Source: Bacillota bacterium (lineage in GTDB: Bacteria > Bacillota_I > Bacilli_A > Acholeplasmatales > Acholeplasmataceae). Taken from it: a stretch of 22,039 nucleotides of DNA. The stretch lies in the NCBI GenBank assembly GCA_006226985.1, contig SBGC01000148.1, forward strand, positions 1-22,039, given 5' to 3'. Below, in pieces: positions 3,709-20,710 of this stretch (position 1 is its first letter; every line of letters starts with the position of its first letter). The notes below the pieces were generated by a model. It did no database searches and was not told the origin of the DNA. It was given only the letters and a program-made list of their open reading frames with translations. The position numbers were made by a program, and so were the translations under genes.

Positions 3709-6700
3709 TTAATCTTCTATGCGTTCCCATGTTGAATCATGGTCAGTAAATCCATAGTCTCTTGTACGTTCATGTGCATTATAGATCGTAATAACAAAAC
3801 TTCTTGTACGATTCTTCGTACTACTATTGATATAGTAATACTTACCTGTATCATTCGAATCTAGATCTAAGTCATTGACTGTTTGTAATTCATCAGTACC
3901 ATTAAGCTCAATTCGGTAATCATATAAGTAGTTGTCTGGATCTAAAATTTTCACATTAAATGAGAAATATCCACTCTTGTTACGACCAAATCTAAACTTG
4001 TAAGCACCTTGATCTAGCATATAGAATAGGTTTGTTGAATTGGTATATCTGATGACTGTACTAAATTGAGGTAATGTTGTAACGATTGAGTCACCAACAG
4101 GTAGATTTGTATCCATATTTCTTACATTGATCACTATCACTTTTCCATCAAGCGATGGAACAAGTGCATTGCCTTCATAAACAACTTCAAAGATATACGA
4201 AACGTTATAGGTAACGTCAGTCACTGTGATATGGTAATAAACCATATTGTTTTGGTCTTCTGATGTAACACGATAAATGATAATGATGTCTTCATCTTCA
4301 CTACCTTCATTCGCTGTAAAATCGGCAGCAAGCTCACTAATATAAATAGATTCTGGACCATCGACTTCTGTTGTCCATAAATCATTTGTTGCATCATAGC
4401 GAGAAATCGTCGCACCTAAAGGTAAATAATTCAAGAAATAAGGAATATAGGAATCTAGTGGAATATTGGAAACTTGTCCATCGACTCTAAAATCAGTGAC
4501 AAGTGCAGTGTCTGCACCATCATAGTCAATACCAGCGTAGTATATCGACATTGCATAGTCGCTTGGTGTAATGACATTACCTAAATTATCCGCCTCATAG
4601 ATAGGAGCGTATATTGTTTCTGTTGCTAATTCAGCAAATTGGATGTTGGATAAATAAGCATTCGTACCTGGATTCTTTCGAATATAGACATTACCCATAT
4701 TAATTGGGCTATCACCGGTTCTTTGGTAAGTCACTGTAAACGTGTAATCTCCAGCATCAGCTGTTTCATCAACTGTAAATACTAAGTAATTGTCAGTTAC
4801 AGATAAAGTTATACCTGTAATATCGGATGGTGTCACATTAAAATAACTATCTGGATTTTCGCTTTGTAAATTATAAACATCACTTGAATATGTGCGATCA
4901 ATTCCATAGTCAATTGAAATGGATGTTGAAAAAGCTTCACGTGTAACAATAACTGGATTTAAACTTGTCATCGTCACCTTATTATTATTTCGATAGACAT
5001 TGGTAATAGAAACAGCTCTTTCACGAATCTGATGTGTATAGTTTGTTGTTGATCCTGATTCTGATAAAAGAGAATACGTAATATTATAAATTCTAAATCC
5101 ATTATCATAAGTGATACTACCAATGGACACATTCGATATTGTAGAAAAGTCACTAATTTGTATACGATCCAAGAAGGGCAATGTATAATAGAGCACATTT
5201 TCTTCATAGGGTTTAGCAAGTGGATCAGTCACTGCAGTAAGTGTTGTATTCGAAAAATCGAGTGGATAACCAAAATTAAGATATGATGTTAGTGTTGTTC
5301 CTGATGGTGTCACAGCACCTGATGAGTAATGTTCTATTTCTTCCACTGCACGAAGTGTAGATGCACCTTTCGTAAATGTGTAATAGATACGATTCTCATA
5401 TGGCAATAATCTAAATCCTACCCGATACTCACCATTTCTAAGTTGAGGGCTCACATCAAGTGTTAGTGTAAATGGATAATATGTGGCATTTTGTACAAGT
5501 GTTGATGATAAACCAAAATCTTCATAATCAACATTGACATAGCTACTGGTGTTTGGATCATAGTATTCTAAAACAACATTATCATTTTCTGTTGTACCTA
5601 TGGATAAAATGTCAGTTCCAATAGGTAATACTTGACTGTTATTTCTAAAATTAATACGAAGGGATGTATCGACATTCTCAACAGTTATGATAGATGGTAC
5701 ACCTGTTCTTACTGTACCTCCATCGATTTGGTAGCTATATGCATAAGGTAGTGTTGGACTTGCTTGATAAGTCACATTAAGTCGAATTAAATAATCCGAT
5801 ACGTAATTTTCATTTAAGAATGCATTATAATATTGCGAGACCTCTGAATAAGATGATATATATCCGATATTAATGAGACCTGTTTGTAGATTGTTTAGAT
5901 CAAACGTATAGGTAAATAATGGATTCAAATCTGGCTTATTTTCAGGTAATACATTGGGATCAGCATAATCATAAAGTAGAGGTCTAAAACTACTAATATA
6001 TGCACTCATGTTGGTTCCATATGGGAATCCATAATAGTCTTCAATCGTCTTAGCTACAACAGCGTTATTTGGCGTCATAGCGCCATATATACGATAGTTA
6101 ACAGTAGATAGTCCACCACTAAATTGAAGCTGTGATAAATGGAGATTAAACGTGATTGTACCCGTAGGATTTTGCGTTGTTGGATGCACGACAGTTGGTA
6201 AATAGAGTTTCGATGATGACCCTCCCTCTTCTTCTAAACTAAGTGTAGATGAGGTGTCATCAAGTAATCGAGATTTATCACTATACATGGTCTGAAAGAG
6301 CTCTTCATATTGTGCTAAAAGATTCGTATATGTCACACTTTCGCTTGCTAAAATACGTGTTGGATTATCGTAGTCAATATCATAAGAAGGTAATAATCCT
6401 TCATTATCTGCAAGTGGTAATAGCTTATCAAATGTCATATTTGCAGGTAGAATGGAACCGAATGTTGAACCTGATGATGTCGCTAAGACATACATACCGT
6501 TCGGTCTTGAATTCATAAATGTTGGAGATAAGTTACCATTTTCTGAATAATAAATATATTGTTGTAAAACAGGGTCTGTTTGCATCGCAAACGATGGTGA
6601 ATAGACATATTCACCGACTGGATCGTTTGGATCTTCCGTAATAACGGGTACCCCTTGAGGACGAGCAAAGAAATAATATGATGGCATATTATTACTATAA

Positions 6701-9700
6701 TTGATGGTTGATCCTATAACTTTCGTTGATTCATCATCCCATACTTGATTATAAAGTGGCAAATCATGTTCATACTTATATTCATTGAGTGTCCCTACAT
6801 TAACCGTACTACCAGATACTACACTCCAGCCTGTGCTACCATGTGTTGGAGCATCAGTCCTAGAAATGATTTCTGTTTGATAGGTTTGATTCGTAGAATA
6901 TCCACCATTTCTTAAATATCTTCTACCATATATGGTTACTTCTGAACGATTAGCAGTTTTTGTATAGGTTGTTCTTTCCCAATAGCCTGTATTAATATTA
7001 TAATTATATTCATATTTTCTTGAGGTTATTGTAATATTATAGTTATGTCTTTCAGCATTACTTGAGTTCCCAACACGTGTACTTGAATCTTGGAACCAAT
7101 AAATTCCGGTAAAAACAGCTTGTGTTGTATCATTTTTTCTAGCACTATAATAAACTGCATTTCTAAAATCAAAGAAATAAATCGATGAGTTATAGTTATC
7201 TACTTGGTCGAGTCTTCCAATTAAGTCAACATTGGGGTCCATATTAACAATGAAGTTAAACGTTGATGTTGATGTATTATTACCATACATATATAAACTT
7301 GACCCACGTTGAAGACGACCAAAAATGCCACCAAATCCACGTTTGTCTTCAGGGTAAAGTCTCATATCACTATATGTATCAGGGAAAATGAATGTTGAAT
7401 CAACAGGATAAAAATAATCTCTTATTGTTTCATAGTCCATAATATCAATTTGTGCATAATTTGCATAAGCTGATGCAGTCCCACGATTAAAAGCTCTAAC
7501 TGTTCCATAATTAATAGCTGTATCAATTTTGACATAAAATGAAGTTGCAATAACAACAGTCGCTCCTGCGATACCGCCAGCAACATCTGTTGAACTGACC
7601 TGACCATGGTTCATCATGCGTCGCATAATCGATAAACCATAACCAATAATACCACCTGCAGATGCATTAATACCTGGTCTTTCTTCTGTTGATTCGCGCA
7701 TGTATACGCGCACGTCACCATTATATAATCTCGAATAATATGTATTATCATAAGCTGGTACAATCGCATCTTGTGTAATGTCATGACGCATAAGGTTACC
7801 ATTATATGAAGACAACGTACGATATTCATGGGTTGTCACATAATTTGAAATCGAAATTGTTAATGCTGAAACAATACCATAGTTAATACAGTTTGATAAT
7901 ATCGAATCCCAAATCGATGCTGTATTTGCTGTTCCATAAGGTGTATACACGTTACCATTACCAATTTCAATATATATCGCAATACCTAAAATACCACCAG
8001 CACGAACAAAGTTCTTAGAAACCCCAATAATACTTCCGCTATTTGATGAGTCATAGATTCTTGATTGTTCTGACATAACTGCAGATGAAATACCGCCAAT
8101 CACGATACCATAACGATATTTTGTGTTTGATCCACCTGATGTAGAAGTTGTTCCAAATGTTACATTTCCTGTATCAACATTCGATGTATTTTCAAAACGA
8201 ATATCGCCCATGTTTGCTGAGTTTTGGATATCCCCATCATTAAATGTTACTAATCCACCAGCATAGACGTTTGCATGTCCAGAAATTCCACGATAAATGC
8301 CATATGTTGAATACATTTGTGCATTATTAATCGAGTTTAATATACCCATGGTAGCAATCGGCATTGACTCCGTTCCAAGAGGATCCATATTACCTGAATT
8401 ATTATAGTTTACAAATCCACCAATGTAGATATTATTTCTTTGTGAGTAATTAAATTGGTTTGATGTTATACCTGAAACAACGATCTCGCCGTTAACTAAA
8501 CCATTTTTAATATAACGATTCATCGTTAAAGTCTTTGTTATACCAGCGATAAATAATTGTTTCTCGTTAACATTATCTCCTTGCATGATAAGGTTGTAAG
8601 CATAAATACCACCATCAAATGTTACATTTAAATAATCAACATTTTCAGATAGTGTTATACCTGCTAGACTTGTTGTTTGAGATAATGTTTGATTCTTCAA
8701 TGTAATATCAGCATTGTTTTCAACAAATCGAAGTAATGTATACGCATTTTGTGTACTATAATAAACACCTGAATAATTATAAACATTGACAATTTCCATA
8801 TCCATATCGTTTCTTGATTGTGATATGGTTAAAGATTGCCCAATATTATAGACAAGTGTTGTAAAATCTAAGTTTGAAAAATCTCCAGATAGTGGTGATT
8901 CTGTATAATAATCAAGTGATGCATTCGTATGATTGAATAAATGTATAAACTCAGCTGTTTCACTATGATTAGACACTAAAACACCTGATGAAATGATTTG
9001 ATTGGTTCCTCTAGATTGAGGATCAATCGTGCCTTTATGTGTATAATTACCAACCGCTATACTCATTTCTGGGGCATAGCCTGTACTCATACCAATGACA
9101 CCACCAACATACTGAGTCTCTGTCGATGCACTTTTCATTTCATATGTTTTGAGTGTGCCTTCACTCGTGAGTAAACCTAAAATATGACGATTGAATTCTG
9201 TATTGTTAACATATCCGATGACACCACCCATATACATGGTTGGTGCTGATGAAACATTCATCGTTGTTGAGGTTGTTCCTATACCCAAAATATCTAGGCT
9301 ATTATAAGCATCTGTTAAGATGAGTTTTTCATTTCCGGTTGCTCCAACAATTCCACCAAAATGATATGTTGGATTGATTAAGATATCTGTTCTATAAACA
9401 TGATTTTGTTTTGCATCTAATGTTCCATCGACATAAACAGATGAAATAAAGCCTGAAGCTCTACCTGCAATACCACCCGCATAAAACTGACCTAACGTCT
9501 TTGTTCCTAAATCAAATTCAACATCTGCAAGAACATTGCGAATAGTACCATCAATTAAATCACCTGCAATTAAACCGATATAATTGTTTACACCTGCATA
9601 ACTATCTGTTTGTGTTAAGCTTACACGTGCATTTAAAAACATTAAATTATAGACTGATCCACGTAATATACCAAATAAACCTGTGTAATAAGATTCTTGA

Positions 9701-11172
9701 ACCATACCATCAACAATATGAAGGTCTCTAATATAAATCGAATTATTTGCACCAGCAAACACACCTGAAAATTCTACAGTTGGTGTTGTATAACCGCGAG
9801 GTGCAACCCCACCCATATCAATATTGCCTGTAATAATATAGTTAAGTTCACGAAAAGGAGTTAATCCTTGTGGTCGTGTATAGTTAAGCATTTTAGAAAA
9901 TGCAATCAAGTCTCTTTCATCATTAATAATGAAATAATTGGGAACTGTTATAATCTCATTTTCTTCACTGTTTAATGTAATTTGATAACTGCTATTAACA
10001 AATTCAAGTCCAAGAGTCGATGGGTATTTAGGATAAGGATTACTTTCTGCAGGATAATAATACCAACCTGAACCTAAAACTACATTTGTATTTCTTAGTG
10101 CTTGTGTTGTCATCGGAGTCGCATAACCGTTCGGTGTCGTAATATTATATGTATTACCTGCAATCGTTACGGTTTCTTGATAGAGTGTATCATCATATGC
10201 AAGATTCGAAATGGTACCTCCAATTGCATTATTAAATAATACGGGTTGTGCATCAAATCTTGAACCATATGAAGCATTGACAACAACTCTACCTGCAAAA
10301 TAAGCATCTGTAAATGAACCATAGTTGTTATAAACAATGCCTGATGCATATCCTTCAGATGCAACCATACGAATACCAGCAACTAAAGCTGTTGATCGAT
10401 AGTCAATAACGTAAACGTGATTGACGTCTCCAGTAGCTCTATTCTCACCAACGAGATTTGCTGCTTTATATAATGAATCACTTTCAAAGGTATATTCATA
10501 TGTTGGATTGATAATACCAAGATTTTGAATGGTTCCTTCATTATATGCAAACATCGCATAAAACTCGATATAGGAAACGGTTGTTTCAAATTCTGTACCT
10601 TCATATAGAATTTGTGTTAATTTATCATATCCTGAAAAATATAGATTCCATATTTCAAAACCATTACCATCAAATGTTCCTTTAAATGCTTGTTGATAAG
10701 TCGTTCCTTCGATTTCAAAGTGATAACCAATTGGATTAAATTGTTTCGATTTCATGACTGTATAGTCGATATCTTGACCTAAAATATAGTCTAAGCTCAT
10801 CAAAATATTGATCGCTGCAGGTGTTAGTTTAGTTTCAAATTGTGTATATTTTAAATCATATGAAACATCAAGAGAAAAACGATAGAGCTCTTCAGCTGTA
10901 TCAAATCGAATAATTTTACCCCAAGTTAAAGGATTGATAAGGACAATTTGTGCTGAGGTTTGAGCAACACTATCTCTAAAATCCGTATAAGAGATATACG
11001 TCGATTCAGGAAGTGTAATTTCTGGCATTTCTTCATATGTATGTGTTCCTGTATTTCCATAGTTTTCTTCTGCAACGGAAATATGTTTAGGAGAAACAAC
11101 AAAAACCATCATAAATGCGACAGATGTGAGTAAGAAAAATCCGATTGTAATCTTCTTTAAGATAGATTTCAT
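3709..11172 (-). CDS. Giant secreted surface protein with GLUG-like repeats and beta-rich C-terminal half (about 2487 aa)
   Basis: Start: ATG 11172 overlaps the preceding gene's stop as ATGA and is preceded by GGAGG; a TTG two codons upstream is possible but less likely. Residues about 8-32 form a hydrophobic signal segment after a basic N-terminus. From about 160 to 1290 there are repeated glycine-rich units of the GLUG type (for example GTFDGNGF, AGGIAG, GGVIGY, GGIVG, followed by N-x-G-x-V turns), expected to form a beta-solenoid. After a Tyr/Asn/Ser-rich stretch and a short EEEGGSSSK linker near 1645, the rest is beta-strand-rich sandwich-like sequence. I saw only one Cys. There is no LPxTG motif and no C-terminal membrane helix, so anchoring must be non-covalent, through the N-terminal segment, or through the fibre. 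It is the last gene of the operon, behind the second c-di-GMP switch. Likely a large adhesin or fibre-associated protein (inference). Confidence 0.85.
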   Translation of the reverse strand: MKSILKKITIGFFLLTSVAFMMVFVVSPKHISVAEENYGNTGTHTYEEMPEITLPESTYISYTDFRDSVAQTSAQIVLINPLTWGKIIRFDTAEELYRFSLDVSYDLKYTQFETKLTPAAINILMSLDYILGQDIDYTVMKSKQFNPIGYHFEIEGTTYQQAFKGTFDGNGFEIWNLYFSGYDKLTQILYEGTEFETTVSYIEFYAMFAYNEGTIQNLGIINPTYEYTFESDSLYKAANLVGENRATGDVNHVYVIDYRSTALVAGIRMVASEGYASGIVYNNYGSFTDAYFAGRVVVNASYGSRFDAQPVLFNNAIGGTISNLAYDDTLYQETVTIAGNTYNITTPNGYATPMTTQALRNTNVVLGSGWYYYPAESNPYPKYPSTLGLEFVNSSYQITLNSEENEIITVPNYFIINDERDLIAFSKMLNYTRPQGLTPFRELNYIITGNIDMGGVAPRGYTTPTVEFSGVFAGANNSIYIRDLHIVDGMVQESYYTGLFGILRGSVYNLMFLNARVSLTQTDSYAGVNNYIGLIAGDLIDGTIRNVLADVEFDLGTKTLGQFYAGGIAGRASGFISSVYVDGTLDAKQNHVYRTDILINPTYHFGGIVGATGNEKLILTDAYNSLDILGIGTTSTTMNVSSAPTMYMGGVIGYVNNTEFNRHILGLLTSEGTLKTYEMKSASTETQYVGGVIGMSTGYAPEMSIAVGNYTHKGTIDPQSRGTNQIISSGVLVSNHSETAEFIHLFNHTNASLDYYTESPLSGDFSNLDFTTLVYNIGQSLTISQSRNDMDMEIVNVYNYSGVYYSTQNAYTLLRFVENNADITLKNQTLSQTTSLAGITLSENVDYLNVTFDGGIYAYNLIMQGDNVNEKQLFIAGITKTLTMNRYIKNGLVNGEIVVSGITSNQFNYSQRNNIYIGGFVNYNNSGNMDPLGTESMPIATMGILNSINNAQMYSTYGIYRGISGHANVYAGGLVTFNDGDIQNSANMGDIRFENTSNVDTGNVTFGTTSTSGGSNTKYRYGIVIGGISSAVMSEQSRIYDSSNSGSIIGVSKNFVRAGGILGIAIYIEIGNGNVYTPYGTANTASIWDSILSNCINYGIVSALTISISNYVTTHEYRTLSSYNGNLMRHDITQDAIVPAYDNTYYSRLYNGDVRVYMRESTEERPGINASAGGIIGYGLSIMRRMMNHGQVSSTDVAGGIAGATVVIATSFYVKIDTAINYGTVRAFNRGTASAYANYAQIDIMDYETIRDYFYPVDSTFIFPDTYSDMRLYPEDKRGFGGIFGRLQRGSSLYMYGNNTSTSTFNFIVNMDPNVDLIGRLDQVDNYNSSIYFFDFRNAVYYSARKNDTTQAVFTGIYWFQDSSTRVGNSSNAERHNYNITITSRKYEYNYNINTGYWERTTYTKTANRSEVTIYGRRYLRNGGYSTNQTYQTEIISRTDAPTHGSTGWSVVSGSTVNVGTLNEYKYEHDLPLYNQVWDDESTKVIGSTINYSNNMPSYYFFARPQGVPVITEDPNDPVGEYVYSPSFAMQTDPVLQQYIYYSENGNLSPTFMNSRPNGMYVLATSSGSTFGSILPANMTFDKLLPLADNEGLLPSYDIDYDNPTRILASESVTYTNLLAQYEELFQTMYSDKSRLLDDTSSTLSLEEEGGSSSKLYLPTVVHPTTQNPTGTITFNLHLSQLQFSGGLSTVNYRIYGAMTPNNAVVAKTIEDYYGFPYGTNMSAYISSFRPLLYDYADPNVLPENKPDLNPLFTYTFDLNNLQTGLINIGYISSYSEVSQYYNAFLNENYVSDYLIRLNVTYQASPTLPYAYSYQIDGGTVRTGVPSIITVENVDTSLRINFRNNSQVLPIGTDILSIGTTENDNVVLEYYDPNTSSYVNVDYEDFGLSSTLVQNATYYPFTLTLDVSPQLRNGEYRVGFRLLPYENRIYYTFTKGASTLRAVEEIEHYSSGAVTPSGTTLTSYLNFGYPLDFSNTTLTAVTDPLAKPYEENVLYYTLPFLDRIQISDFSTISNVSIGSITYDNGFRIYNITYSLLSESGSTTNYTHQIRERAVSITNVYRNNNKVTMTSLNPVIVTREAFSTSISIDYGIDRTYSSDVYNLQSENPDSYFNVTPSDITGITLSVTDNYLVFTVDETADAGDYTFTVTYQRTGDSPINMGNVYIRKNPGTNAYLSNIQFAELATETIYAPIYEADNLGNVITPSDYAMSIYYAGIDYDGADTALVTDFRVDGQVSNIPLDSYIPYFLNYLPLGATISRYDATNDLWTTEVDGPESIYISELAADFTANEGSEDEDIIIIYRVTSEDQNNMVYYHITVTDVTYNVSYIFEVVYEGNALVPSLDGKVIVINVRNMDTNLPVGDSIVTTLPQFSTVIRYTNSTNLFYMLDQGAYKFRFGRNKSGYFSFNVKILDPDNYLYDYRIELNGTDELQTVNDLDLDSNDTGKYYYINSSTKNRTRSFVITIYNAHERTRDYGFTDHDSTWERIED

Positions 11173-11933
11173 GCCCAACTACCTCCCCATGGAGGAGTTA
11201 GTAAACCCCAATTATAAACAGGTGCATTATTTCCTGCTTGAATCGCTTCAACAATGATTGAAAATTGTAAGTGATAACCTACAGATTTTGTATCAAATTC
11301 ATCACCATCGAACGCTTCAATAAACGGAATGGTTAATTGTGTTGATGACATATCTCTTTCAATCAGCTCTGAATAATAATAGTATCCATCTTCAAGTGAA
11401 TTATTAAACCATTTTGTTCCTGGAACAACCACATCATTTGATGTAATACCACCTAAAGCGATTTCTGCATCAATTAAATCTTCATAATACACATCATTGA
11501 CTAAAAAATAGCGATCAATGGCGTAGTTAATGGGTTTATCTACAATAGCTACTTCACCACGATTACCTTCATAATCAATGGTTGATAAAATAAGCGAGTC
11601 TACGATTGCAACACGAATATATGTATCTACTGTACTATTTACGCGGATATCAATACGTAAATTCGTAATATAATCTTCTGCATTCGTATCAGAGACATTT
11701 ATATGGTAAACACCGGATTTTACAACTGCTGAACCTTCATATAGAAGTCTTTGACTGGGTTCGATATAGATACTATCTAAATACGCATGATAGTCAACTT
11801 GAACATTGGCAGCAGTCATAATAAATGAGTCTGTTCGGTTAATCAGCACAATCCAAGCAAAGCTAAAAGACCCAAAAAGGATCAAAATAAGCGATGTGAT
11901 AGACATGACGAGTAAACGATATTTTCTACGCAT
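11169..11933 (-). CDS. TasA-like secreted protein E (254 aa)
   Basis: ATG 11933 has an AAGGAG site 4-5 bases upstream. The N-terminus is basic, then hydrophobic, then SFAWIVLINRTDSF (about residues 24-37). This is the same A-W junction after the hydrophobic core seen in the other subunits here, and is typical of substrates of SipW/ER-type signal peptidases. The rest is beta-rich with no Cys. Near the end IPFIEAFDGDEFD aligns with the WLEGWD motif of subunits A-C in degenerate form, followed by the strand YHLQFSIIV. The protein ends in WGGSWA, and its TGA overlaps the giant gene's ATG, so the two are translationally coupled. This suggests a fixed ratio or a partnership such as a fibre tip or adaptor (inference). 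It is not a recognised named gene. Confidence 0.78.
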   Translation of the reverse strand: MRRKYRLLVMSITSLILILFGSFSFAWIVLINRTDSFIMTAANVQVDYHAYLDSIYIEPSQRLLYEGSAVVKSGVYHINVSDTNAEDYITNLRIDIRVNSTVDTYIRVAIVDSLILSTIDYEGNRGEVAIVDKPINYAIDRYFLVNDVYYEDLIDAEIALGGITSNDVVVPGTKWFNNSLEDGYYYYSELIERDMSSTQLTIPFIEAFDGDEFDTKSVGYHLQFSIIVEAIQAGNNAPVYNWGLLTPPWGGSWA

Positions 11934-12676: not shown

Positions 12677-12695
12677 GTGGCTTACCTCCTTTAAC

Positions 12696-12742
12696 AAAAT
12701 AAAAAGCCAATTGACCCCAAATCTCTTTGAGAGCAACTGGCT
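12696..12742 (-). terminator. Riboswitch-controlled intrinsic terminator, internal to operon
   Basis: Read on the - strand, AGCCAGTTG (12742-12734) pairs over 9 bp (one wobble) with CAATTGGCT (12713-12705), followed by TTTTATTTT. Its 5' arm starts inside the conserved GGUAGC and the following AGUU of the upstream aptamer, so aptamer and terminator are mutually exclusive. Confidence 0.85.
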
Positions 12743-12800
12743 ACCTAATGTTTAGGCCCTATAGCTTTGCGTCACTAGGTCACCCTAGTTTTGCCAAAAT
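12730..12800 (-). ncRNA. Cyclic-di-GMP-I (GEMM-I) riboswitch, internal copy
   Basis: On the - strand the RNA shows the GEMM-I core in order: GGCAAAAC; P2 hairpin ACUAGG-GUGA-CCUAGU with a GNRA loop; GACGCAAAGC; GGGCCUAAAC with closing UUAGG (tetraloop-receptor arm); and GGUAGC followed by AGUU. AGCU and AGUU can close the lower P3 helix. The first G of GGCAAA, which I align with Vc2 G20 (ligand recognition), is present, favouring c-di-GMP over cGAMP. It lies between the second signal peptidase and TasA-like gene D. There is no convincing promoter of its own, so it probably acts on read-through transcription. Because the terminator consumes the aptamer's 3' part, ligand binding should allow read-through (ON switch, inference). 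The P1 partner strand is not clear by eye. Confidence 0.9.
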
Positions 12801-12805
12801 TATAA

Positions 12806-13498
12806 TTACTGATTTGATTGTTTAAGTTTTTCTTTTTCTTCTTCGAGTATCTTTTCATACTCTTGTTTCCGTTTTTCTTCTAAATCTTTTTTAAACTGTT
12901 CTTGTTCTTCAAGAAGTTTTTTTTCTTTTTCTAAGTTCCACTCTTTAAATAAGTGAATGACTTCAAAAACTAAGATGATAAGTAAGATAACGATAACAAC
13001 TGGGAAGATGACATTTCTTGATTCAACAAGAATTTTAACAATCGGTTTTAAGAACGTTATCTTTGAAGAGAGTGTACCTTGATAAAGATCTTCTGTGATA
13101 TATGGATCAGTACATGTACTTCCTTGCTGATCACTAACTTGGTTATTATCACCTTTTGTGATGAAACCATCGATAGGATTACCACTAACGATACGATGTA
13201 TTTTTAATATTTGAATACATCCGTTTGTTGATGTTCGTAATGATTTAAAGACGATGACATCACCTGGAACTAAATCTTCATAAGGTTTTTTTTCGATAAT
13301 CGCTAAGTCATATTGATCGAGAGAATCAGAATTATTTCCTACCATTGAATCGGATGGAATCAATGAGAATGAGGTATCTAAGATATAGAGTAGATTATTG
13401 TTTTTTTGAGCAATGGTTGCCATAAACATAATGCCTATGGAAAGGATAAAGAATAATCCTGCTATGATTGATATGATAATCGTCAATACTTTCTTCAT
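12806..13498 (-). CDS. ER-type (SipW-like) signal peptidase I, second copy, with coiled-coil tail
   Basis: This is a membrane serine protease predicted to remove signal segments from exported subunits. Of 230 residues, about 5-28 form the N-terminal anchor. The catalytic Ser is in PSDSM (S51). The position that is Lys in classical bacterial enzymes is His in KIHRIV (H101), and the acidic region is TKGDNNQVSD (D117, D123): the Ser-His-Asp arrangement of the archaeal/ER branch. A second membrane span covers about 164-184. The final 45 residues are a highly charged Glu/Lys coiled coil on the cytoplasmic side, which ordinary SipW proteins lack. The region 87-130 includes two Cys (C94, C129). It lies 20 bp after the coiled-coil partner gene and just before the internal riboswitch. 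Confidence 0.88.
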   Translation of the reverse strand: MKKVLTIIISIIAGLFFILSIGIMFMATIAQKNNNLLYILDTSFSLIPSDSMVGNNSDSLDQYDLAIIEKKPYEDLVPGDVIVFKSLRTSTNGCIQILKIHRIVSGNPIDGFITKGDNNQVSDQQGSTCTDPYITEDLYQGTLSSKITFLKPIVKILVESRNVIFPVVIVILLIILVFEVIHLFKEWNLEKEKKLLEEQEQFKKDLEEKRKQEYEKILEEEKEKLKQSNQ

Positions 13499-13518
13499 CG
13501 ATTAATCCCTCTAAAAAC

Positions 13519-15372
13519 TTAAGATGCTTTCTTTAGTTTTTCCTCATAATCCTTTTGTATTTTTTCTTTTGCTTGTTCAATTCTTTGTTTAGACAAAGCT
13601 TTCGTCTTTTCTTTTTCTACTTTAAGTTTTTCTCTTTGAATGCGACGTTGCTCTTTAATTTGTTTTTCTAGTTTTAGTTTTTCTTGTCGCTGTTTAGTAC
13701 GAAGTGCACGCATTTCTTGTTGATACTTTTGAGCTGCCTTTTTCTTTTCAAGAGCGATAACTTCTTTTTCTTCTTCTTTGAGTTTACGTTGATTTTCTTT
13801 AAGTTTTTCCTCAAATGCTTTTTGTTCATCCGTAAGGATTTGTTTTTGTTCAGATACAATCGATAAGTAGTCTGTGAGGATACCTTGATTTTTTGCTAGG
13901 TTTTCACGTTCAATACGAATACGTTCTTCAATTGCTTTCTTCTTCGCATCATCGATGATCTTACGTTTGTTTTCCTTGATGAGCTCTTTATCTAAGCGAT
14001 CAATTTCTTTAAGCATTCTTTTCTCAAGACGAATTGCATTATTATAGTCAACTTCTTTTGTTTCACGAATAATTCTTGCAACTCTTGCCTTATCTTTTGC
14101 TTTATTAACACTTTGTTCTAAATCTTCTTTTACAAGTTGTTGGAAGAAAATATCTTCTAAATCTTCATCATCTGTGTCAAATTCGAAGTATGAGTTATAT
14201 AAAGCATTGGTAATCGCGATGGTGTCTCTTAAAGCTTTTCTTAATGCCACATCATAACTTGATGATCCATCAAGATGTTTATCAAGATTTTTCTTAAAAA
14301 TAGCCTTATTTTGTTCAAGATAATATTGATTAATCTGTGTGTTTTCAACTTCATAAGGATCAGGGTTTTTCACAATATCCTTTAAATGTCTTTTCACATT
14401 TTTAATTGACTTTTTCTTGTACTCATTAACATCGATAAATTCAAAGCGATCTTTTAAATCTTTTTGGTTACCGATGATTGATGTGAAAGCCATTAAAACT
14501 GTTTGATTGATATTTTTTAAGTAAGGTTTATCAAGTGGTAAATTGGATTCTTTAACCTCTAAATCAAAATCGAGTAAGTTATACTTATCAAGATATAACC
14601 ATAGGATGTAGCAGTTGTTGTAATCAACGTTTTTTAAGATAATGGACGTCTTCATAATCGGTGGAACAACAGGTTTTGCATTTTTTAACTCAATCATGAA
14701 TGGTGTTTCTCTTAAACCATTGATTTTCTTTAACAGGTTCATGACACGTCGTAACAGTTCATGATTTCCTTCTTTAATCGATTCATCATCTAATTCTTCT
14801 TTTATATTCAAATCAATATTCAAATCAACTTCTGATTCACGAATATTGAACTTTGATTTCAAATTGAAATGTTTCTTTTCGAAAGATTCAACATTGTTTT
14901 TAATAATTTCATAACGACTATTTACAAAACGGAAGAGACGATCGATCAGTGTTTTGATAAAACGATTTTCATAGATAGCATATTCAATTTCTGCATTTGT
15001 GACTAAGATTTTTTTAGGAACTACCATATCATCTCTAATTTCTTTGATAAGATGAGTATTAGCTGCTAAATGTCTGACTGAATCGCTATTTATTTTCTTA
15101 GCTTTTTCTATCACTGTCACTTCTTGTTCATAGCGTAAACCTGATTTTGCATTATTGGTGATCTTGTTTAAACTAGGAAAAAACGATTCAATCGTTCCAA
15201 TCCAATCTTCATGAAAATGTTTGATTTCAGAAATTGATTTTTGATAGATCTCGTTTTGTCCAGATAGGAAAGCGTGATAGAAGACATTTGGAAACTCTTC
15301 ATTCAACTCTACCTCGTAGAACACCTCATTCATCGTTTTCAATAACTGGGTTAGATCGCTAACTTTTTTCAT
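13519..15372 (-). CDS. Coiled-coil protein with DUF2357-like N-terminal half, partner of the AAA+ ATPase
   Basis: The 617-residue protein has no signal peptide and no membrane span, so it should be cytoplasmic. Residues about 110-155 contain VPKKILVTNAEIEYAIYENRF followed by an IKTLIDRLFRF helix. This resembles the P-E-N-R-F-V-K core of DUF2357 proteins that accompany McrB-like ATPases; the assignment is by eye. Residues about 430-617 are an almost uninterrupted basic and acidic coiled coil (Lys/Glu/Arg/Gln). I see no PD-(D/E)xK nuclease motif. ATG 15372 has GGAGGG upstream, and the gene follows the ATPase stop by 12 bp. A plausible role is a scaffold or adaptor coupling the ATPase to the coiled-coil tails of the signal peptidases (inference). 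Confidence 0.8.
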   Translation of the reverse strand: MKKVSDLTQLLKTMNEVFYEVELNEEFPNVFYHAFLSGQNEIYQKSISEIKHFHEDWIGTIESFFPSLNKITNNAKSGLRYEQEVTVIEKAKKINSDSVRHLAANTHLIKEIRDDMVVPKKILVTNAEIEYAIYENRFIKTLIDRLFRFVNSRYEIIKNNVESFEKKHFNLKSKFNIRESEVDLNIDLNIKEELDDESIKEGNHELLRRVMNLLKKINGLRETPFMIELKNAKPVVPPIMKTSIILKNVDYNNCYILWLYLDKYNLLDFDLEVKESNLPLDKPYLKNINQTVLMAFTSIIGNQKDLKDRFEFIDVNEYKKKSIKNVKRHLKDIVKNPDPYEVENTQINQYYLEQNKAIFKKNLDKHLDGSSSYDVALRKALRDTIAITNALYNSYFEFDTDDEDLEDIFFQQLVKEDLEQSVNKAKDKARVARIIRETKEVDYNNAIRLEKRMLKEIDRLDKELIKENKRKIIDDAKKKAIEERIRIERENLAKNQGILTDYLSIVSEQKQILTDEQKAFEEKLKENQRKLKEEEKEVIALEKKKAAQKYQQEMRALRTKQRQEKLKLEKQIKEQRRIQREKLKVEKEKTKALSKQRIEQAKEKIQKDYEEKLKKAS

Positions 15373-15384
15373 CTAAACCCTCCG

Positions 15385-16929
15385 CTAGAATTGTCGTTTA
15401 ATGTTGTTTAAGTAAGCTTGGCATTCCACAAATTGATTTTTACCAAATAAACGATCTATAAGTATTGATAATTCATTGATTTCAGTTTGCAAGAATGGTA
15501 AGTTTAAACTTTCGAACTTTCTAAAAATTTTACGTGCAACCATATAATCAAGACCTTCGTATTCTGTTCCACCACATGCTACATAAACAGGAACGAATGC
15601 ACGAATTTGTTTCATGATACGGTTACCAAACGTAACTTTTAAGTTTGTTGTAATAAAGGCATCTAGTTTTTCTAAGTTTTCAAGAGCTTTAATCGATAAT
15701 GCATGATCTTTAGAAGCGATTCTAAAGAGATCTTGAAGATAGTCGTTACTAAATGTAATTCCCTCAGTTTGTGGAGCATCGATATAACTTGACTTAGTGT
15801 TAATTTCTATCGGTGTCGCACGGTCATATACCTTGTCTGTAATGGTAAATGTCGAGTCATCTTTATTTGCTGTACCGACGAACCATACGTTTTGAGGTAA
15901 AAGGATTTTCCCATTTTTAATATGTTTAGGATCTCCTGGTTGTGAATCTGGAACAATGTCAACCCACCATTGATCAGGGTCAGGCATTTCCATTAAGGAT
16001 AGGAACTCAGCAAAATAATATTCAACACGGGCTAAGTTCATTTCATCTAAGACGATGATACATATATCATCACGATAGGTTGTTTCATAGATAGCTTTTA
16101 AGAAGTCTGTTTCATTGAATTTCTTCGTAAATTCATTTAAGTATCCAACCATTTCTGCACGATCTCTCCAAGAAGGTTGAACAGCGATAATGTCAGCATT
16201 TTTACCAAAGAATTTTCCCATAGCGTATGGTAATGATGTTTTCCCGGTACCAGATATACCTTCTAGAATCATGGTTTTTGAAGTCGCCATCCCTGCAAAG
16301 AATGCTGAGATAATTTTCCGATCATAGAATAATCCTAATTTAGATGCTGAGAAGTTAATAAAACGTTTCACTAAGTCTTTTAAATTAATCATGTCTTCAT
16401 CACGCATGTGTATTGCAGTAATCGTATTCTCATACTCTTTATCGACATGGATTAATTTAACAAATCGAGATGGTCCTGTATATGCGTCTTTTTTTGAATC
16501 TTCTGGAAAATCTTTATCGTTATCAGAACCGGTTCCAATACCTCCACCAATTTCACCAACTTTAAGAGCAAGAATTTTATTCTTTTCTTCAATCAGTTCA
16601 ATCGTCTTCTGGTTAAGGAATGTGATTTCTTCAAGAAGTTCGTCTTTTTCAATCTCTTTTCGGGTAAATTTAACAAATTTACGACCTATTTGATACCCTT
16701 TTAACGACAAAAAGGCAACAAATGCTATGTTGATCAGTAGTACCACGAATGCCATAACCCAGTCAAGTAAACTAAAGTTACTACTAGCAGCGATGAAGTT
16801 TTTAAAATACCCTGCAACATCATTAAATAGTAAATCGGCAAATGCTTCAAATAATCTTTTGAAAAATTCACCGATATTCGCAAATAAGTTTCTAATGAAG
16901 TTGATATAGTATCGTGCGAACTCTACCAT
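15385..16929 (-). CDS. Membrane-anchored McrB/MoxR-type AAA+ ATPase
   Basis: This is a 514-residue ATPase. The N-terminal 50 residues are amphipathic and a membrane span follows at about 56-77 (DWVMAFVVLLINIAFVAFL). Residues 90-122 look like a coiled coil, then comes a Gly-rich linker (GGGIGTGSDND). The AAA+ core has Walker A GISGTGKT (224-231), Walker B IIVLDEMN (291-298) followed by LARVEYYFAEFLSLME, sensor 1 VGTANKDD (351-358) and the DRATPIEI arginine-finger region (R370). The DEMNLARVEYYF block is characteristic of the McrB-like AAA_5 group. Unlike McrB there is no DNA-recognition domain. ATG 16929 has AAGGTG upstream. Its place between two signal peptidases in a secretion operon suggests a remodelling motor at the membrane rather than restriction of DNA (inference). 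Confidence 0.87.
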   Translation of the reverse strand: MVEFARYYINFIRNLFANIGEFFKRLFEAFADLLFNDVAGYFKNFIAASSNFSLLDWVMAFVVLLINIAFVAFLSLKGYQIGRKFVKFTRKEIEKDELLEEITFLNQKTIELIEEKNKILALKVGEIGGGIGTGSDNDKDFPEDSKKDAYTGPSRFVKLIHVDKEYENTITAIHMRDEDMINLKDLVKRFINFSASKLGLFYDRKIISAFFAGMATSKTMILEGISGTGKTSLPYAMGKFFGKNADIIAVQPSWRDRAEMVGYLNEFTKKFNETDFLKAIYETTYRDDICIIVLDEMNLARVEYYFAEFLSLMEMPDPDQWWVDIVPDSQPGDPKHIKNGKILLPQNVWFVGTANKDDSTFTITDKVYDRATPIEINTKSSYIDAPQTEGITFSNDYLQDLFRIASKDHALSIKALENLEKLDAFITTNLKVTFGNRIMKQIRAFVPVYVACGGTEYEGLDYMVARKIFRKFESLNLPFLQTEINELSILIDRLFGKNQFVECQAYLNNIKRQF

Positions 16930-16959
16930 AGGTCACCTTGTAATAAGAATTTTTAAAGA

Positions 16960-17709
16960 CTATTTTTGTTCTTTCTTTAATTCTTCTAATATTTGTTGAC
17001 GCATCTTTTCTTTTTCAGCTTCTAGATTAGCTAATGCTTGTTCTTTCTCTTTTTCAAGATCAGAGGTTAGTTTTTCTTTATTAATCATAAACACATTTTT
17101 CACAAGGAATACAGTTTCAATAATTAATAACAAAAGAACTGGGAATACAACAAACATTAAAAATCCATTAGGGGTTTGAATCGTTTTCATTGCTTGACCA
17201 AAACCAGGTAATTGTCCTGTATATACACCTAATACATTTTCATAAGAGATAGCTTCTAGATATGTTTCTTGATAATTCACATAACCTGGATCTTCTTCAT
17301 CCGGCATCTCTGGAGCAGCATCTCCGCGTGTAATATAAACAACTTTACCATTATTGTCTTCAGTAACTTCAACAATTCTATGTGTAATCAAACCATTTCC
17401 ACCAATACCAGGAATGTTCATTTTGAAGTAAGTGATAATATCTCCAACTTTTAAGTTTTGTTTCTGTGATTCACTGGGAATACGCACAAAAATCAAGTCT
17501 TTAGTTGAAAAAGAATCTTCTTCATCTCCATCCATAGAACTCGTTAAAACAGTTAAGAATCCACGTCCACCAATATTTGCAATATCACCGGTTGTTTTTA
17601 GCTTAGTGTTTGCAACAGCGAATAATATTAAAATGAGCAATGCAGAATAAAATATAACATTCAGTGAGATTTTTGTAACTCTCTTGACTACAAGTTTTTT
17701 ATTGCTCAT
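16960..17709 (-). CDS. ER-type (SipW-like) signal peptidase I, first copy, with coiled-coil tail
   Basis: I chose ATG 17709 (MSNKKLVV), which has AAAGGA 5 bases upstream; the longer frame to 17763 would start inside a hairpin and lacks a site. Of 249 residues, about 14-34 form the membrane anchor. The nucleophile is in LTSSMDGDEED (S58), the general base is His in LITHRIVEV (H110), and the acidic site is ITRGDAAPEMPD (D130), so this is the Ser-His-Asp archaeal/ER branch, as in SipW. A second membrane span covers about 183-207, and residues 210-249 are a Glu/Lys-rich coiled coil. It directly follows the probable major subunit gene, as sipW accompanies tasA in Bacillus. It probably processes the A-W-type signal segments of the subunits encoded here. 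Confidence 0.9.
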   Translation of the reverse strand: MSNKKLVVKRVTKISLNVIFYSALLILILFAVANTKLKTTGDIANIGGRGFLTVLTSSMDGDEEDSFSTKDLIFVRIPSESQKQNLKVGDIITYFKMNIPGIGGNGLITHRIVEVTEDNNGKVVYITRGDAAPEMPDEEDPGYVNYQETYLEAISYENVLGVYTGQLPGFGQAMKTIQTPNGFLMFVVFPVLLLLIIETVFLVKNVFMINKEKLTSDLEKEKEQALANLEAEKEKMRQQILEELKKEQK

Positions 17710-17739
17710 AAATATCCTTTCGATTTTCCTAAATGGGTG

Positions 17740-17769
17740 ATCCGTGTGACCTAAGTCGATCACACGGAC
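17740..17769 (-). other. Intercistronic RNA hairpin after subunit C, without U-tract
   Basis: GTCCGTGTGA (17769-17760 on the - strand) and TCACACGGAT (17749-17740) form a 10-bp stem with a 10-nt loop. No T-run follows in either direction, so it is not an intrinsic terminator. It lies between the likely major subunit and the signal peptidase, where an mRNA-stabilising or processing hairpin would raise the level of the upstream message. Confidence 0.6.
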
Positions 17770-17812
17770 CAGACTAGAATAGGAAATTAGTAATTAAATG
17801 TTTTAGTACTTA

Positions 17813-18745
17813 TTAAGCAGCAGCAATGAATCTCAAACCAGTAGTAATTGTTCTACCTAAGATACCATTAAGAGCTTCTGCATCCCAACCTTCTAACCAA
17901 ATACGGATCACGATAGTTCCATAATATTCTTGGTCATGAATAGCTGATTGACCTGAAGTCATTGTTAAAACCTTAAGACCAACGCCTGGAGCGATTGAAG
18001 TTACTGTTGAAACAGTAGTCACTGAATCTGCACCACCAGGAAGTGTGTTTGTACTTTCATAGTAGAAGTTAACTGCACCATCAACACCTATACCACCATT
18101 TGTTAAGTCAGCTGCTGATAAACCACCAAGTACTGTGTTTGTATTTAATGCTGGGTTTTCATAAACGTGAGTAGTTACTTCTGGACCTGTACCAGGATCA
18201 ACCATACCAGTAATTGATAATCTCATTGCATCAGCTGCATCAGTTGGATATGTTTGTGTAGTATTTCTTGGATTTCCAAGTGAGTCAACGAATGGAACAG
18301 CTGGACGATATTGTACAACACCACTTGTTAATGATACTTGATCCCAAGCGATTTCATCTGCTGAGTTAGATCTGAAGTGTAGAGGAATTTCTACATAACC
18401 TGATGTTGTAATGTCACCGATTGCTCCAATACCTAATGTTCTAAATGTTCTACCATCTTGTGAAGTCACATGTGTGAACAATGGTTGTCCGCCATATGCT
18501 GCATCGAGGTAAGCTAAGATATCAGCAGTTGTTAATGTAGTTCTCCACACTAAATCTTCTGGTAATGTAGCTAAATCGTCAACTGCGATTTCGATACCGG
18601 CATCCATAATAATGTCTACTTCAAAGTCTTGAATTACTGATGTATTGGTTAAAGTAAACCATGCAAATGTTGTTGTTCCAAGTGTTGCAACTGTTACAAC
18701 AACTGTTAATACGGCAAGTATTAATTTTCTAGTCATTTTTGTCAT
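17813..18745 (-). CDS. TasA-like secreted protein C, probable major fibre subunit (310 aa)
   Basis: ATG 18745 has GGGAG 10 bases upstream. Residues 7-27 form a signal segment followed by TTFAWFTLTNTSVIQDFEVD, the A-W-F junction characteristic of SipW-dependent proteins. The mature chain is rich in Thr, Ala, Gly and Val, lacks Cys, and is beta-rich, as expected for a polymerising subunit of the TasA/camelysin type. The C-terminal motif IRIWLEGWDAEAL followed by a last strand ending RFIAAA is shared with subunits A and B. It is directly followed by a signal peptidase gene and is flanked by two non-terminating hairpins, which suggests its message is handled separately. Its composition differs from the neighbours (more Ala/Gly/Thr). 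The major-subunit role is inferred. Confidence 0.82.
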   Translation of the reverse strand: MTKMTRKLILAVLTVVVTVATLGTTTFAWFTLTNTSVIQDFEVDIIMDAGIEIAVDDLATLPEDLVWRTTLTTADILAYLDAAYGGQPLFTHVTSQDGRTFRTLGIGAIGDITTSGYVEIPLHFRSNSADEIAWDQVSLTSGVVQYRPAVPFVDSLGNPRNTTQTYPTDAADAMRLSITGMVDPGTGPEVTTHVYENPALNTNTVLGGLSAADLTNGGIGVDGAVNFYYESTNTLPGGADSVTTVSTVTSIAPGVGLKVLTMTSGQSAIHDQEYYGTIVIRIWLEGWDAEALNGILGRTITTGLRFIAAA

Positions 18746-18782
18746 TTTTCTAGTCTCCCTATATTTCTTTTTATTTTTTTAT

Positions 18783-18807
18783 GTTAATTAACCTTCGTTA
18801 ATTTAAC
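18783..18807 (-). other. Intercistronic RNA hairpin before subunit C
   Basis: GTTAAATTAAC (18807-18797) and GTTAATTAAC (18792-18783) form a stem with a single bulge around a GAAG loop, just after the stop of subunit B and 38 bp before the subunit C start. On the - strand it is followed by A-rich sequence, not a U-run, so it is not a terminator. A role in mRNA processing or 5' protection is plausible. Confidence 0.5.
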
Positions 18808-18809
18808 CC

Positions 18810-19781
18810 TTATTCGTTTGCTGGGTTAGCTAATTTGAATTGCAACTGGATTCTAATTTGATCATTCCCAATTGCATCAAATGCATCTGCATCCCAACCT
18901 TCAACCCAAATGTTTATTCTGACTTTGGATTGGTAATACGTTCTTTCCTCATCACTGATTAACTCTGTTTCTTGTAGAGTTGCTATCTGTGATTCATTAT
19001 CGAGTGCTTGATACGGATTTTGTGGGTCCATCAAGGACAATCGATAGGTAGTGTTTGGGAATGTTGTCGGTGGAAACAAGTATAATCTTGCTCTTTTGTT
19101 GAAGTAACTGAGCATTCCAAACGATACACCATAACCTCTTGCACTATTTTCTGAAGGATCATAGATGATATTCTTTAATTCATCTATTGATCTTTGATCG
19201 AGAGGATTCATATCATCTCTTAATTCTCTAATACCAATTCTTAATGCATCACTTGCGTAATATTGATCAATTGAACCTACATTAACTGTATCTTCTGGAA
19301 GTGGTCCATTGAAGAATGTTTCATTCGACATCCAATATACACCACGTGAGACAACAAACGTTCCAAGCATATCGTAGTTGTAATAGTCAATCAAAGTATT
19401 TATATTGTTGAATAAATAGATTGCTCTTTCAGGTCTTGTTGATCTAAACCATAAATCAAATGTGACATAGTGGAAATTAGGAATTGCTTCGTTATGTCCT
19501 CTTAATCCTCCGGTGTAAAAGTTAATGTTATCAAGTGTTGTTGCATCATAGAGTGTTACACCTTCAAATAATTCTGCAATTTCTTCTCTCGGTAAGCTAT
19601 TGTAAAATGTTTCGCCGTCAATTGAAATTTGTAAATCATCTCCAGCTGAGGCTGTTAATCCAATACCATCAATATTATTAATGGTTGCGAGTGATACCCA
19701 TGCATATGCGATCACTCCTATTGTGATGATCATCGAAGTTGAAATCAGTAAGATGAGAAGAATTCGTCTTAAAATTCTCAT
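18810..19781 (-). CDS. TasA-like secreted protein B (323 aa)
   Basis: ATG 19781 is preceded by a weak GGTGAT site and lies 10 bp after the stop of subunit A, so translation may be coupled. The N-terminus is MRILRRILLILL with a hydrophobic core ending IAYAWVSLATINN, the A-W signal junction of this set. The mature region reads ASAGDDLQISIDG and continues beta-rich with no Cys. Near the C-terminus INIWVEGWDADAFDAI matches the motif of A and C, and the last strand is IRIQLQFKL. I read it as a structural or minor subunit of the same fibre family. It is moderately similar in layout to C but richer in Asn, Tyr and Arg, which argues against an interchangeable copy. Confidence 0.8.
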   Translation of the reverse strand: MRILRRILLILLISTSMIITIGVIAYAWVSLATINNIDGIGLTASAGDDLQISIDGETFYNSLPREEIAELFEGVTLYDATTLDNINFYTGGLRGHNEAIPNFHYVTFDLWFRSTRPERAIYLFNNINTLIDYYNYDMLGTFVVSRGVYWMSNETFFNGPLPEDTVNVGSIDQYYASDALRIGIRELRDDMNPLDQRSIDELKNIIYDPSENSARGYGVSFGMLSYFNKRARLYLFPPTTFPNTTYRLSLMDPQNPYQALDNESQIATLQETELISDEERTYYQSKVRINIWVEGWDADAFDAIGNDQIRIQLQFKLANPANE

Positions 19782-19791
19782 ATCATCACCA

Positions 19792-20502
19792 CTAATCGAA
19801 TGTGTTAACTGTGAAGTTCATCGTCAATCTGATTCGACCACCGATAATTTCATCGGTTGTATCAGGATCATATCCTTCTAACCATATAAGTATACTGAAT
19901 TTTTTAATTTGCCCTGGTTTGAAATTTGTGAATGTCTTACGCATAACCATTTGTTCAGTAATGAATGGAGTACTTTCTGGCATAATGTCTGGGTAATATG
20001 GAGGATTTTCTAAATCAATTCGATCTTCCATTTGATACATCGACTGTACACCATCTTCAATCACGAGTACTCTTACAGCGTGATCTAATCTACGGTTAAC
20101 ATCGGTAATTCTCACGTAATATGTGATATCTACTGTCTCGTTACCTGTGTTTTGAATATAGAAGGTATACGCAACGTATTCATGATCAGGATCTGTATAA
20201 TTACCATTGGTTGCTTCAACTTCTTCAATCTTTAACCAAGAGTATGTCATATCTCTTGCTTCATCGATAGGTTCAGTCATCAATCTCGATAGTTGTTCGT
20301 TAAATGAAGGTTCCTCTGAGATGACGATTCCTCTTATTGCTGCTGCTTCATCAACTGAAATGACGAAGTTACCAGCATTTTGTCCATAAAAGGTAATAAT
20401 CGCGAATGCAATGGATAACATGCCTGAGATAATAATACCGAGTGTTACAATTCGATTTCTTATTCTTCTTTTTCTAAATCCTAACACATTCGATAATCTC
20501 AT
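19792..20502 (-). CDS. TasA-like secreted protein A (236 aa), first gene of the operon
   Basis: ATG 20502 has AAGGAGG 7 bases upstream. The start has an unusually long basic region (RKRRIRNR) before the hydrophobic segment at about 19-38, which ends AFAIITFYGQNAGNF; Trp is replaced by other residues at the junction. The mature part contains ISVDEAAAIRGIVISEEPSF and then a beta-sandwich-like region with YTFYIQNTGNETVDITYYVRI, the N-T-G-x-x-x-V-D-x-x-Y strand pair common in SipW-associated proteins. The C-terminal motif ILIWLEGYDPDTTDEI and the strand IRLTMNFTV tie it to B and C. It could be an anchoring or initiating subunit because it is first behind the promoter and riboswitch (inference). 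Confidence 0.8.
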   Translation of the reverse strand: MRLSNVLGFRKRRIRNRIVTLGIIISGMLSIAFAIITFYGQNAGNFVISVDEAAAIRGIVISEEPSFNEQLSRLMTEPIDEARDMTYSWLKIEEVEATNGNYTDPDHEYVAYTFYIQNTGNETVDITYYVRITDVNRRLDHAVRVLVIEDGVQSMYQMEDRIDLENPPYYPDIMPESTPFITEQMVMRKTFTNFKPGQIKKFSILIWLEGYDPDTTDEIIGGRIRLTMNFTVNTFD

Positions 20503-20509
20503 GGGATAT

Positions 20510-20516
20510 CCTCCTT
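20510..20516 (-). promoter_or_regulatory. Shine-Dalgarno site of operon gene A
   Basis: AAGGAGG on the - strand, 7 bases before ATG 20502. It lies beyond the riboswitch terminator, so control here is by transcription termination rather than by masking this site. Confidence 0.8.
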
Positions 20517-20561
20517 TACATCGTTTTGATGATTCCTTTTTTGATGTTAATGTTAAGAAAC

Positions 20562-20595
20562 AAAAAAGCCAGTGTCATCTCTAATGACAACTGGC
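20562..20595 (-). terminator. Riboswitch-controlled intrinsic terminator in the operon leader
   Basis: On the - strand AGCCAGTTGTCAT (20595-20583) pairs with ATGACACTGGCT (20578-20567) apart from one bulged T, and a run of six T follows. The 5' arm overlaps the conserved GGUAGC and AGUU at the aptamer's 3' end, so the ligand-bound aptamer should prevent the terminator. It is also the first terminator downstream of the GGDEF-EAL gene. Confidence 0.88.
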
Positions 20596-20660
20596 TACCA
20601 TTTCAGGCCCTTTAGTTTTGCGTCCCTAGGTTTCCCTAAGTTTGCCTTTTACATTCGGTA
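20585..20660 (-). ncRNA. Cyclic-di-GMP-I (GEMM-I) riboswitch, operon leader
   Basis: On the - strand the core reads GGCAAAAC; P2 CUUAGG-GAAA-CCUAGG with a GAAA loop; GACGCAAAAC; GGGCCUGAAAUGGUAGC; then AGUU. AACU and AGUU close the lower P3 helix, so the A replacing G in GACGCAAAGC is compensated (A-U instead of G-U). The G aligned with Vc2 G20 is retained, so c-di-GMP is the expected ligand. The position I would align with Vc2 C92 appears to be U here and C in the internal copy, but the alignment by eye is uncertain. A small GUAUCA/UGAUAC hairpin lies just upstream of the core. Expected action: c-di-GMP binding permits read-through into gene A. Confidence 0.92.
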
Positions 20661-20681
20661 TCAAGAAACTGATACACCTTG

Positions 20682-20710
20682 ATTATATTGCAAGTGATTC
20701 TAATTGTCAA
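20682..20710 (-). promoter_or_regulatory. Consensus sigma-A promoter of the fibre operon
   Basis: On the - strand TTGACA (20710-20705), a 17-bp spacer and TATAAT (20687-20682) form a perfect consensus promoter. The predicted start at about 20675 is just upstream of the riboswitch. A promoter this strong implies that regulation rests mainly on the downstream RNA switch. Confidence 0.92.

Follow-up and report, generated by a model that had tools for sequence, protein, structure and literature searches.

Results

The 22,039-nt contig SBGC01000148.1 of the Acholeplasmataceae assembly GCA_006226985.1 (contig C14; assembly 1.29 Mb, completeness 88%), hereafter the window, carries ten co-directional open reading frames (ORFs), all on the minus strand and spanning 20502 to 3709, as a first-pass annotation had described. 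We read this row, with a probability of roughly 0.6, as an operon activated by cyclic diguanosine monophosphate (c-di-GMP) that encodes a surface fibre and an assembly apparatus arranged around a CoCoPALM-type, McrBC-derived membrane GTPase. The host is a wall-less bacterium. Control of the operon by c-di-GMP and the CoCoPALM identity of the GTPase core are both well supported, and a surface fibre is the likely product.

The two c-di-GMP-I riboswitches proposed earlier both exceed the Rfam RF01051 gathering score of 35 (Table 1), and the 5' edge of aptamer 2 is the base immediately after the SP2 gene. In both copies the final aptamer strand (AGCCAGTTG..) doubles as the first arm of a terminator, and from this overlap both look like ON switches. 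The same layout was followed in 84 aptamers, comprising 71 on fetched operon loci, the 2 window sites and 11 distant sites, and excluding the operon-linked aptamers of genomes G019, G057 and G058, whose stretches were not fetched. A hairpin of -8 kcal/mol or lower overlapped 78 of the 84 in a folding scan; with the downstream DNA shuffled, overlap fell to 32/83 versus 78/83 for the real sequences, and at -12 kcal/mol it was 75/84 versus 10/83. The overlap test is lenient, yet the excess over shuffles is real.

Upstream of aptamer 1, just past the stop of a GGDEF-EAL gene, lies the sole promoter site within the scanned interval 3000-22039 that matches the consensus at 12/12 positions. Sites with at least 9/12 matches are no commoner than chance (94 versus a shuffle mean of 99.3), so only the 12/12 site carries weight. 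The earlier statement that all genes lie behind one consensus promoter holds for the promoter itself; a single transcript covering the whole row is inferred.

Among regional operons holding 150 nt or more upstream of spA, 23/24 have one to four aptamers there, and the lone operon without one has 159 nt to the contig end. Between SP2 and the next gene, one to three aptamers occur in 23/27 regional operons, and in these 23 the distance from the SP2 stop to the first aptamer is -46 to 83 nt. This leaves little room for a promoter and speaks for one transcript with two serial gates. Of 21 distant named loci scanned with Rfam, eight (L099, L107, L112-L116 and L119) have a c-di-GMP-I-type aptamer on the cassette strand, either within the cassette or ahead of it, and L103 has one after it; the other 12 have none, and many of them hold little upstream DNA, although L102, L106, L109 and L111 hold at least 1 kb.

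An aptamer model, R1, built from 37 of the 84 aptamers (alignment A3) gave 36 matches in 67 loci, all 36 on the strand of the AAA gene; some lie 6-10 kb from it, and that in L159 is partial (33.5 bits, contig end). The matches sit in 23 of 43 fibre-type loci, fibre type being the remainder class left by a script after four other types were set apart; the loci as a whole are related to one another. Model R1 found nothing in seven cadherin-giant/GGDEF-EAL, five tandem AAA, eight 600-aa AAA and three 900-aa AAA loci. Thus, the idea that every AAA subtype is under c-di-GMP switches was rejected (0/23 loci of other subtypes).

Scattering of these genes in related genomes had been named beforehand as the refutation of the proposal, and synteny refutes such scattering. 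The order spA-spB-spC-SP1-AAA-DUF2357-(extra)-SP2 recurs across 40 regional loci, with SP1 immediately before AAA in 30; of the remaining ten, six belong to another type, two are cut by a contig end, one has an inserted gene and one a partial AAA. Because gene order and switches recur in relatives, chance is excluded. The DUF2357 protein was found in 42/61 relatives (weakly in G041, G051, G055 and G059), including 20/20 genomes of the genus and 7/17 of the family's other genera, and the ten other-genus genomes without it measure 0.9-1.5 Mb. Across the class, an AAA gene of any subtype occurs in 104/296 genomes; 60 further loci were fetched, of which 43 were classed as fibre type and the others as different subtypes. 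Named relatives are mostly Acholeplasmataceae, including Tenericutes bacterium MO-XQ and the cultured, free-living Peloplasma aerotolerans, whose strain M4Ah has the operon (L074), and the named set also holds metagenome-assembled genomes (MAGs) labelled Clostridia and Christensenellaceae.

The membrane AAA+ ATPase had been called McrB-like, and it does match McrB by sequence in the PDB (E 0.0028); together with its McrC-like partner it matches the PADLOC candidate-defence model PDC-M26A (135 bits). Its N-terminus carries a transmembrane (TM) segment and a coiled-coil-like stretch. A hydrophobic stretch precedes Walker A in 135 of 148 distinct AAA proteins, and the NxD motif is present in 134, the search pattern having missed 14. 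The DivIC/FtsB Pfam model matches 1/14 AAA members (E 0.0033). AAA homologues number at least 8000, and among the 120 listed the named ones are mostly 'hypothetical', with a few 'MoxR-like ATPase'. One homologue (P0203, 70% identical) was found in eukaryotic data, those of Anaeramoeba ignava, and may belong to an associated bacterium. A signal peptidase precedes AAA in 98 of 167 AAA loci of all subtypes, a count that, unlike those over 148 distinct proteins, includes duplicate genomes.

The DUF2357-like coiled-coil protein of the first-pass annotation was likewise recovered by Pfam. McrC chains fill the top four rows for this protein, and its model holds a helix of about 200 residues. No nuclease, whether of the PD-(D/E)xK type known from McrC or another, was matched by Pfam, and past the DUF2357 domain the model, in which the C-terminal part was not folded alone, shows helices only. 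Its alignment (A1) retains 51 of 85 candidates and that of spC (A2) 40 of 51; in both, many candidates are duplicates, one genome being present as a named and again as an unnamed locus. PDB sequence searches with the spC and DUF2357 profiles returned nothing useful, and Foldseek alone gave no E below 0.001 for either model.

Two endoplasmic reticulum (ER)-type signal peptidases had been reported. SP1 passes TIGR02228, and SP2 is related at a score below the cut-off. The SP1 ORF begins with GTG, and the ATG at 17709 looks the likelier start. Both proteins have charged helical tails C-terminal of the last TM segment. Under a criterion of at least 30 residues, half of them E/K/R/D/Q, tails were found in 36/60 distinct SP1 and 39/43 distinct SP2 proteins, and a recurrent motif, ~EKERIRxELLEEL, was spotted by eye. 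The family model finds four such peptidases in the genome, and a search with the SP1 sequence finds SP1 and SP2 only. The other two, on C171 and C147, end 11-13 residues past the membrane stretch. Long tails thus go with the GTPase operon (2/2 versus 0/2 elsewhere in the genome), which suggests docking on the coiled coils it encodes.

Five secreted proteins with A-W-type signal ends had been claimed; spB, spC, spD and spE have them. The spA signal end instead reads ..AFAIITFYGQN.., a family feature, since [AS]W within residues 11-75 occurs in 1/40 members. For spD, listed as 11945-12736, the most probable start is the ATG at 12676, after the second riboswitch. Of the 195 spC homologues, the 120 listed are all without Pfam domains, and the named ones are 'hypothetical'. 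The predicted beta sandwich of spC is compatible with pilin and TasA folds. In the product of the last gene, described earlier as a giant beta-repeat protein, a loose [AG]G[IVL]-type motif matches eight times and Pfam finds no domain above its cut-off. Assignment as a GLUG protein was rejected, the motif standing alone without Pfam support.

Table 1. Features of the window, in order of transcription of the gene row
Feature	Position	Strand	Description
GGDEF-EAL gene	20729..22039	-	Directly upstream of row, open at window end; Pfam EAL 200.8 bits, GGDEF 54 bits
Promoter TTGACA-17-TATAAT	20682..20710	-	Sigma-70-type, 12/12 consensus positions
c-di-GMP-I aptamer 1	20583..20656	-	In leader; RF01051 63.6 bits, E 1.4e-10
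Terminator 1	20561..20596	-	First arm AGCCAGTTGTCAT overlaps final strand of aptamer 1; sequence and folding scan
spA	19792..20502	-	Secreted subunit; AFA-ITFYGQ type signal end; C-terminal W.EG.D motif
spB	18810..19781	-	Secreted A-W subunit; W.EG.D motif
spC	17813..18745	-	Secreted A-W subunit; predicted beta sandwich (alignment A2, model, fold comparison)
SP1	16960..17763	-	SipW/ER-type signal peptidase, charged cytosolic helical tail; TIGR02228 55.2 bits, cut-off 51.85
McrB-like AAA+ GTPase	15385..16929	-	Membrane-anchored; NxD motif (GTANKDD)
McrC-like DUF2357 protein	13519..15372	-	Pfam 39.5, cut-off 23.3; long C-terminal helix, residues 418-616 of model
SP2	12806..13498	-	Second signal peptidase, tailed; TIGR02228 34.4 bits, below cut-off, related
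c-di-GMP-I aptamer 2	12729..12805	-	Within gene row; RF01051 56.9 bits, E 6.2e-9
Terminator 2	12700..12742	-	First arm AGCCAGTTG overlaps aptamer 2; sequence and folding scan
spD	11945..12676	-	Secreted A-W protein
spE	11169..11933	-	Secreted A-W protein; VEAIQA end; sub-threshold BsaA-family match, E 0.089
Giant protein	3709..11178	-	2489 aa, secreted; candidate adhesin or cargo
Terminator-like hairpin	3682..3707	+	Between convergent gene rows; found by the scan on + strand only

Discussion

The first-pass annotation knew of no described system of this kind, and a wholly undescribed system has to be rejected. In the available part of an eLife paper of 2024 (PMC11090510), the CoCoPALM clade is named with a core of a membrane McrB-like GTPase, a DUF2357 coiled-coil protein and a signal peptidase. 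The window shares with it the NxD McrB-type GTPase with an N-terminal TM segment and coiled-coil-like stretch, the McrC homologue with a coiled coil and the linked signal peptidase genes. That portion of the text makes no mention of a riboswitch, named secreted substrates, peptidase tails or a giant protein. The operon thus appears to be a variant of a named but uncharacterised clade. Within the open-licence literature searched, only this paper and its preprint were relevant, judged by title. There, SipW in Acholeplasma gave no match, and nothing on such an operon was listed for queries linking McrB, signal peptidase and riboswitch, on SipW/TasA in Mollicutes or on c-di-GMP in Acholeplasma.

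As far as PMC7395162 is available, SipW-TasA-TapA of Bacillus subtilis and sipW-bsaABCRSD of Clostridium perfringens each join a SipW-type peptidase and filament proteins in one operon. A dedicated SipW-type peptidase alongside secreted proteins with A-W signal ends is common to these systems and the window. Unlike them, the window has two tailed peptidases and an AAA+/DUF2357 pair, which goes unmentioned for either in that part of the source, and the C. perfringens operon is under two-component control. With McrBC type IV restriction the pair shares the GTPase domain and the McrC N-terminal fold, but it has a membrane anchor, NxD rather than NxxD and a surface-protein context, and neither a DNA-binding domain nor a nuclease was found in it. 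The switches share the aptamer family and terminator-based platform of c-di-GMP-I (GEMM-I) riboswitches in general, differing in that two sites stand in series in one gene row, and relatives show tandem copies, up to four.

We propose that at high c-di-GMP aptamer 1 would fold and capture the strand that otherwise starts the terminator, and RNA polymerase would then read into spA-spB-spC-SP1-AAA-McrC-like-SP2. The same decision would be taken at aptamer 2 before spD-spE-giant, so that the last module would need two successive antitermination events. The subunits would exit via Sec, and SP1 and SP2 would cleave them. With their charged cytosolic tails, these peptidases may dock on coiled coils in both the membrane AAA+ ring and its McrC-like activator. 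Using GTP, the ring could organise or drive the release of subunits and their polymerisation, probably through TasA-like donor-strand exchange, and the giant protein would be an adhesin or cargo. Such a GTP-driven role in assembly is the step we prefer. The earlier proposal of regulated fibre assembly at high c-di-GMP finds support in the conserved control, the ON-switch layout and the compatible beta-sandwich model; fibre formation itself, like any part of the GTPase in it, is an inference. More tentatively, and with odds against it, the McrBC-restriction-derived GTP machine may be a membrane-embedded fibre assembly motor that recruits its own tailed peptidases behind two c-di-GMP gates in series, so that the apparatus is built first and the giant adhesin follows only when c-di-GMP is higher or stays high. 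That probable fibre proteins and their signal peptidases are encoded beside a membrane-bound relative of a restriction GTPase suggests re-use of a defence-type machine for building at the cell surface.

It is also conceivable, if somewhat unlikely, that the AAA/McrC-like pair is a membrane-bound sensor, anchor or quality-control machine that links fibre and cytoplasm, pulls the fibre back or removes stalled subunits, rather than an assembly motor. The long coiled coils and the membrane anchor would suit such a role, as would the occurrence of the pair beside cadherin-like giants and GGDEF-EAL genes where pilin-like neighbours are absent; however, in the window subtype tailed signal peptidases constantly accompany it, an indication of export or processing. 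An anti-phage, type IV restriction-like module in, or guarding, a surface-structure operon would account for the PADLOC match and the McrBC ancestry, but we consider it very improbable, as the pair is membrane-anchored, no nuclease was found by Pfam or in the model past the DUF2357 domain, and presence throughout the genus, in an unvarying arrangement with the secreted subunits and the switches, is unlike the patchy distribution of defence genes.

As to the gates, a separate promoter at riboswitch 2 could make spD, spE and the giant gene a transcription unit of their own, abolishing the series arrangement. A TATAAT is present at the 5' edge of aptamer 2 and the module behind switch 2 differs between relatives, yet RNA started from this TATAAT would begin within the aptamer, no promoter-like site occurs at aptamer 2 among the matches listed (34 weaker sites fall outside that listing), and the short SP2-aptamer distance leaves little promoter space outside SP2; we therefore regard an independent unit as unlikely. 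Similarly improbable is that the secreted subunits form a sheath, a matrix layer or carbohydrate binders instead of a fibre. In comparison with the spC model, beta sandwiches of glycosidase domains reach scores as good as those of TasA, and wall-less cells could use a protein coat. A fibre is nevertheless favoured by several different subunits with one common C-terminal motif, by SipW-type processing and by a low-confidence segment after the spC signal peptide (residues 23-36) that fits donor-strand polymerisation.

On the reading of a c-di-GMP-activated fibre operon, an uncharacterised McrBC clade gains a functional setting that shifts it from 'restriction-like' towards surface biology, and, in many Bacilli and in Clostridia-labelled MAGs, a putative fibre apparatus is linked to c-di-GMP at the RNA level. 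Wall-less bacteria are among the carriers, and surface assembly free of a cell wall is poorly understood.

Related loci and neighbouring genes

Contig C171 of the same genome (L136:192-3885, minus strand) starts with a c-di-GMP-I aptamer followed on the same strand by a SipW-type operon. Its genes encode two small secreted proteins (A-Y-W or A-F-W ends), a 529-aa protein carrying CBM_5_12 carbohydrate-binding modules and a peptidase that lacks a long tail (TIGR02228 63.5 bits). No GTPase gene lies on this 3.9-kb contig. SipW-type export operons under c-di-GMP thus probably number two or more in the host genome. A further c-di-GMP-I aptamer (C178:3664-3738, plus strand) follows a GAPDH-like gene where the contig ends, and its target lies outside the contig. 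On C73 (L134:3662-7910, minus strand) the genome encodes a second membrane AAA protein (895 aa) and a DUF2357-related protein of 522 aa, in which CxxC pairs resembling a zinc ribbon were seen by eye; model R1 finds no aptamer in L134.

Other genomes hold variants. A paralogous cassette beside the operon (L089, L090, L092-L096, L196) has spA-spB-spC-SP1-AAA and a giant protein with no DUF2357 gene, and in L196 it has no model-R1 aptamer. Riboswitch-free, CoCoPALM-like loci (L061-L063, L065-L067, L145) combine a giant protein, a GGDEF-EAL-type gene, AAA and DUF2357; the two giants tested, from L061 and L065, have cadherin-like domains. In L179-L183 two AAA genes flank one DUF2357 gene (AAA-DUF2357-AAA) beside very long proteins, and in L184-L191 the 600-aa AAA subtype has a signal-peptidase-like gene before it and a conserved-looking gene row after it. 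In the L106 cassette, from a Clostridia-labelled MAG, the Rfam scan gave no c-di-GMP-I aptamer and an antisense Gut-1 RNA match (3064-3149, minus strand) just before the spA-like gene.

In the window, the GGDEF motif of the upstream GGDEF-EAL gene is degenerate (RLQNDEF) and its EAL motif is intact (VEALIRW); the assembly has 13 GGDEF and three EAL matches, this gene being one of the three. At the other end, genes for a TetR regulator and an ABC transporter (535-3478, plus strand) converge on the giant gene, and all four genes there have homologues in the fetched loci L039, L042, L044, L046 and L048.

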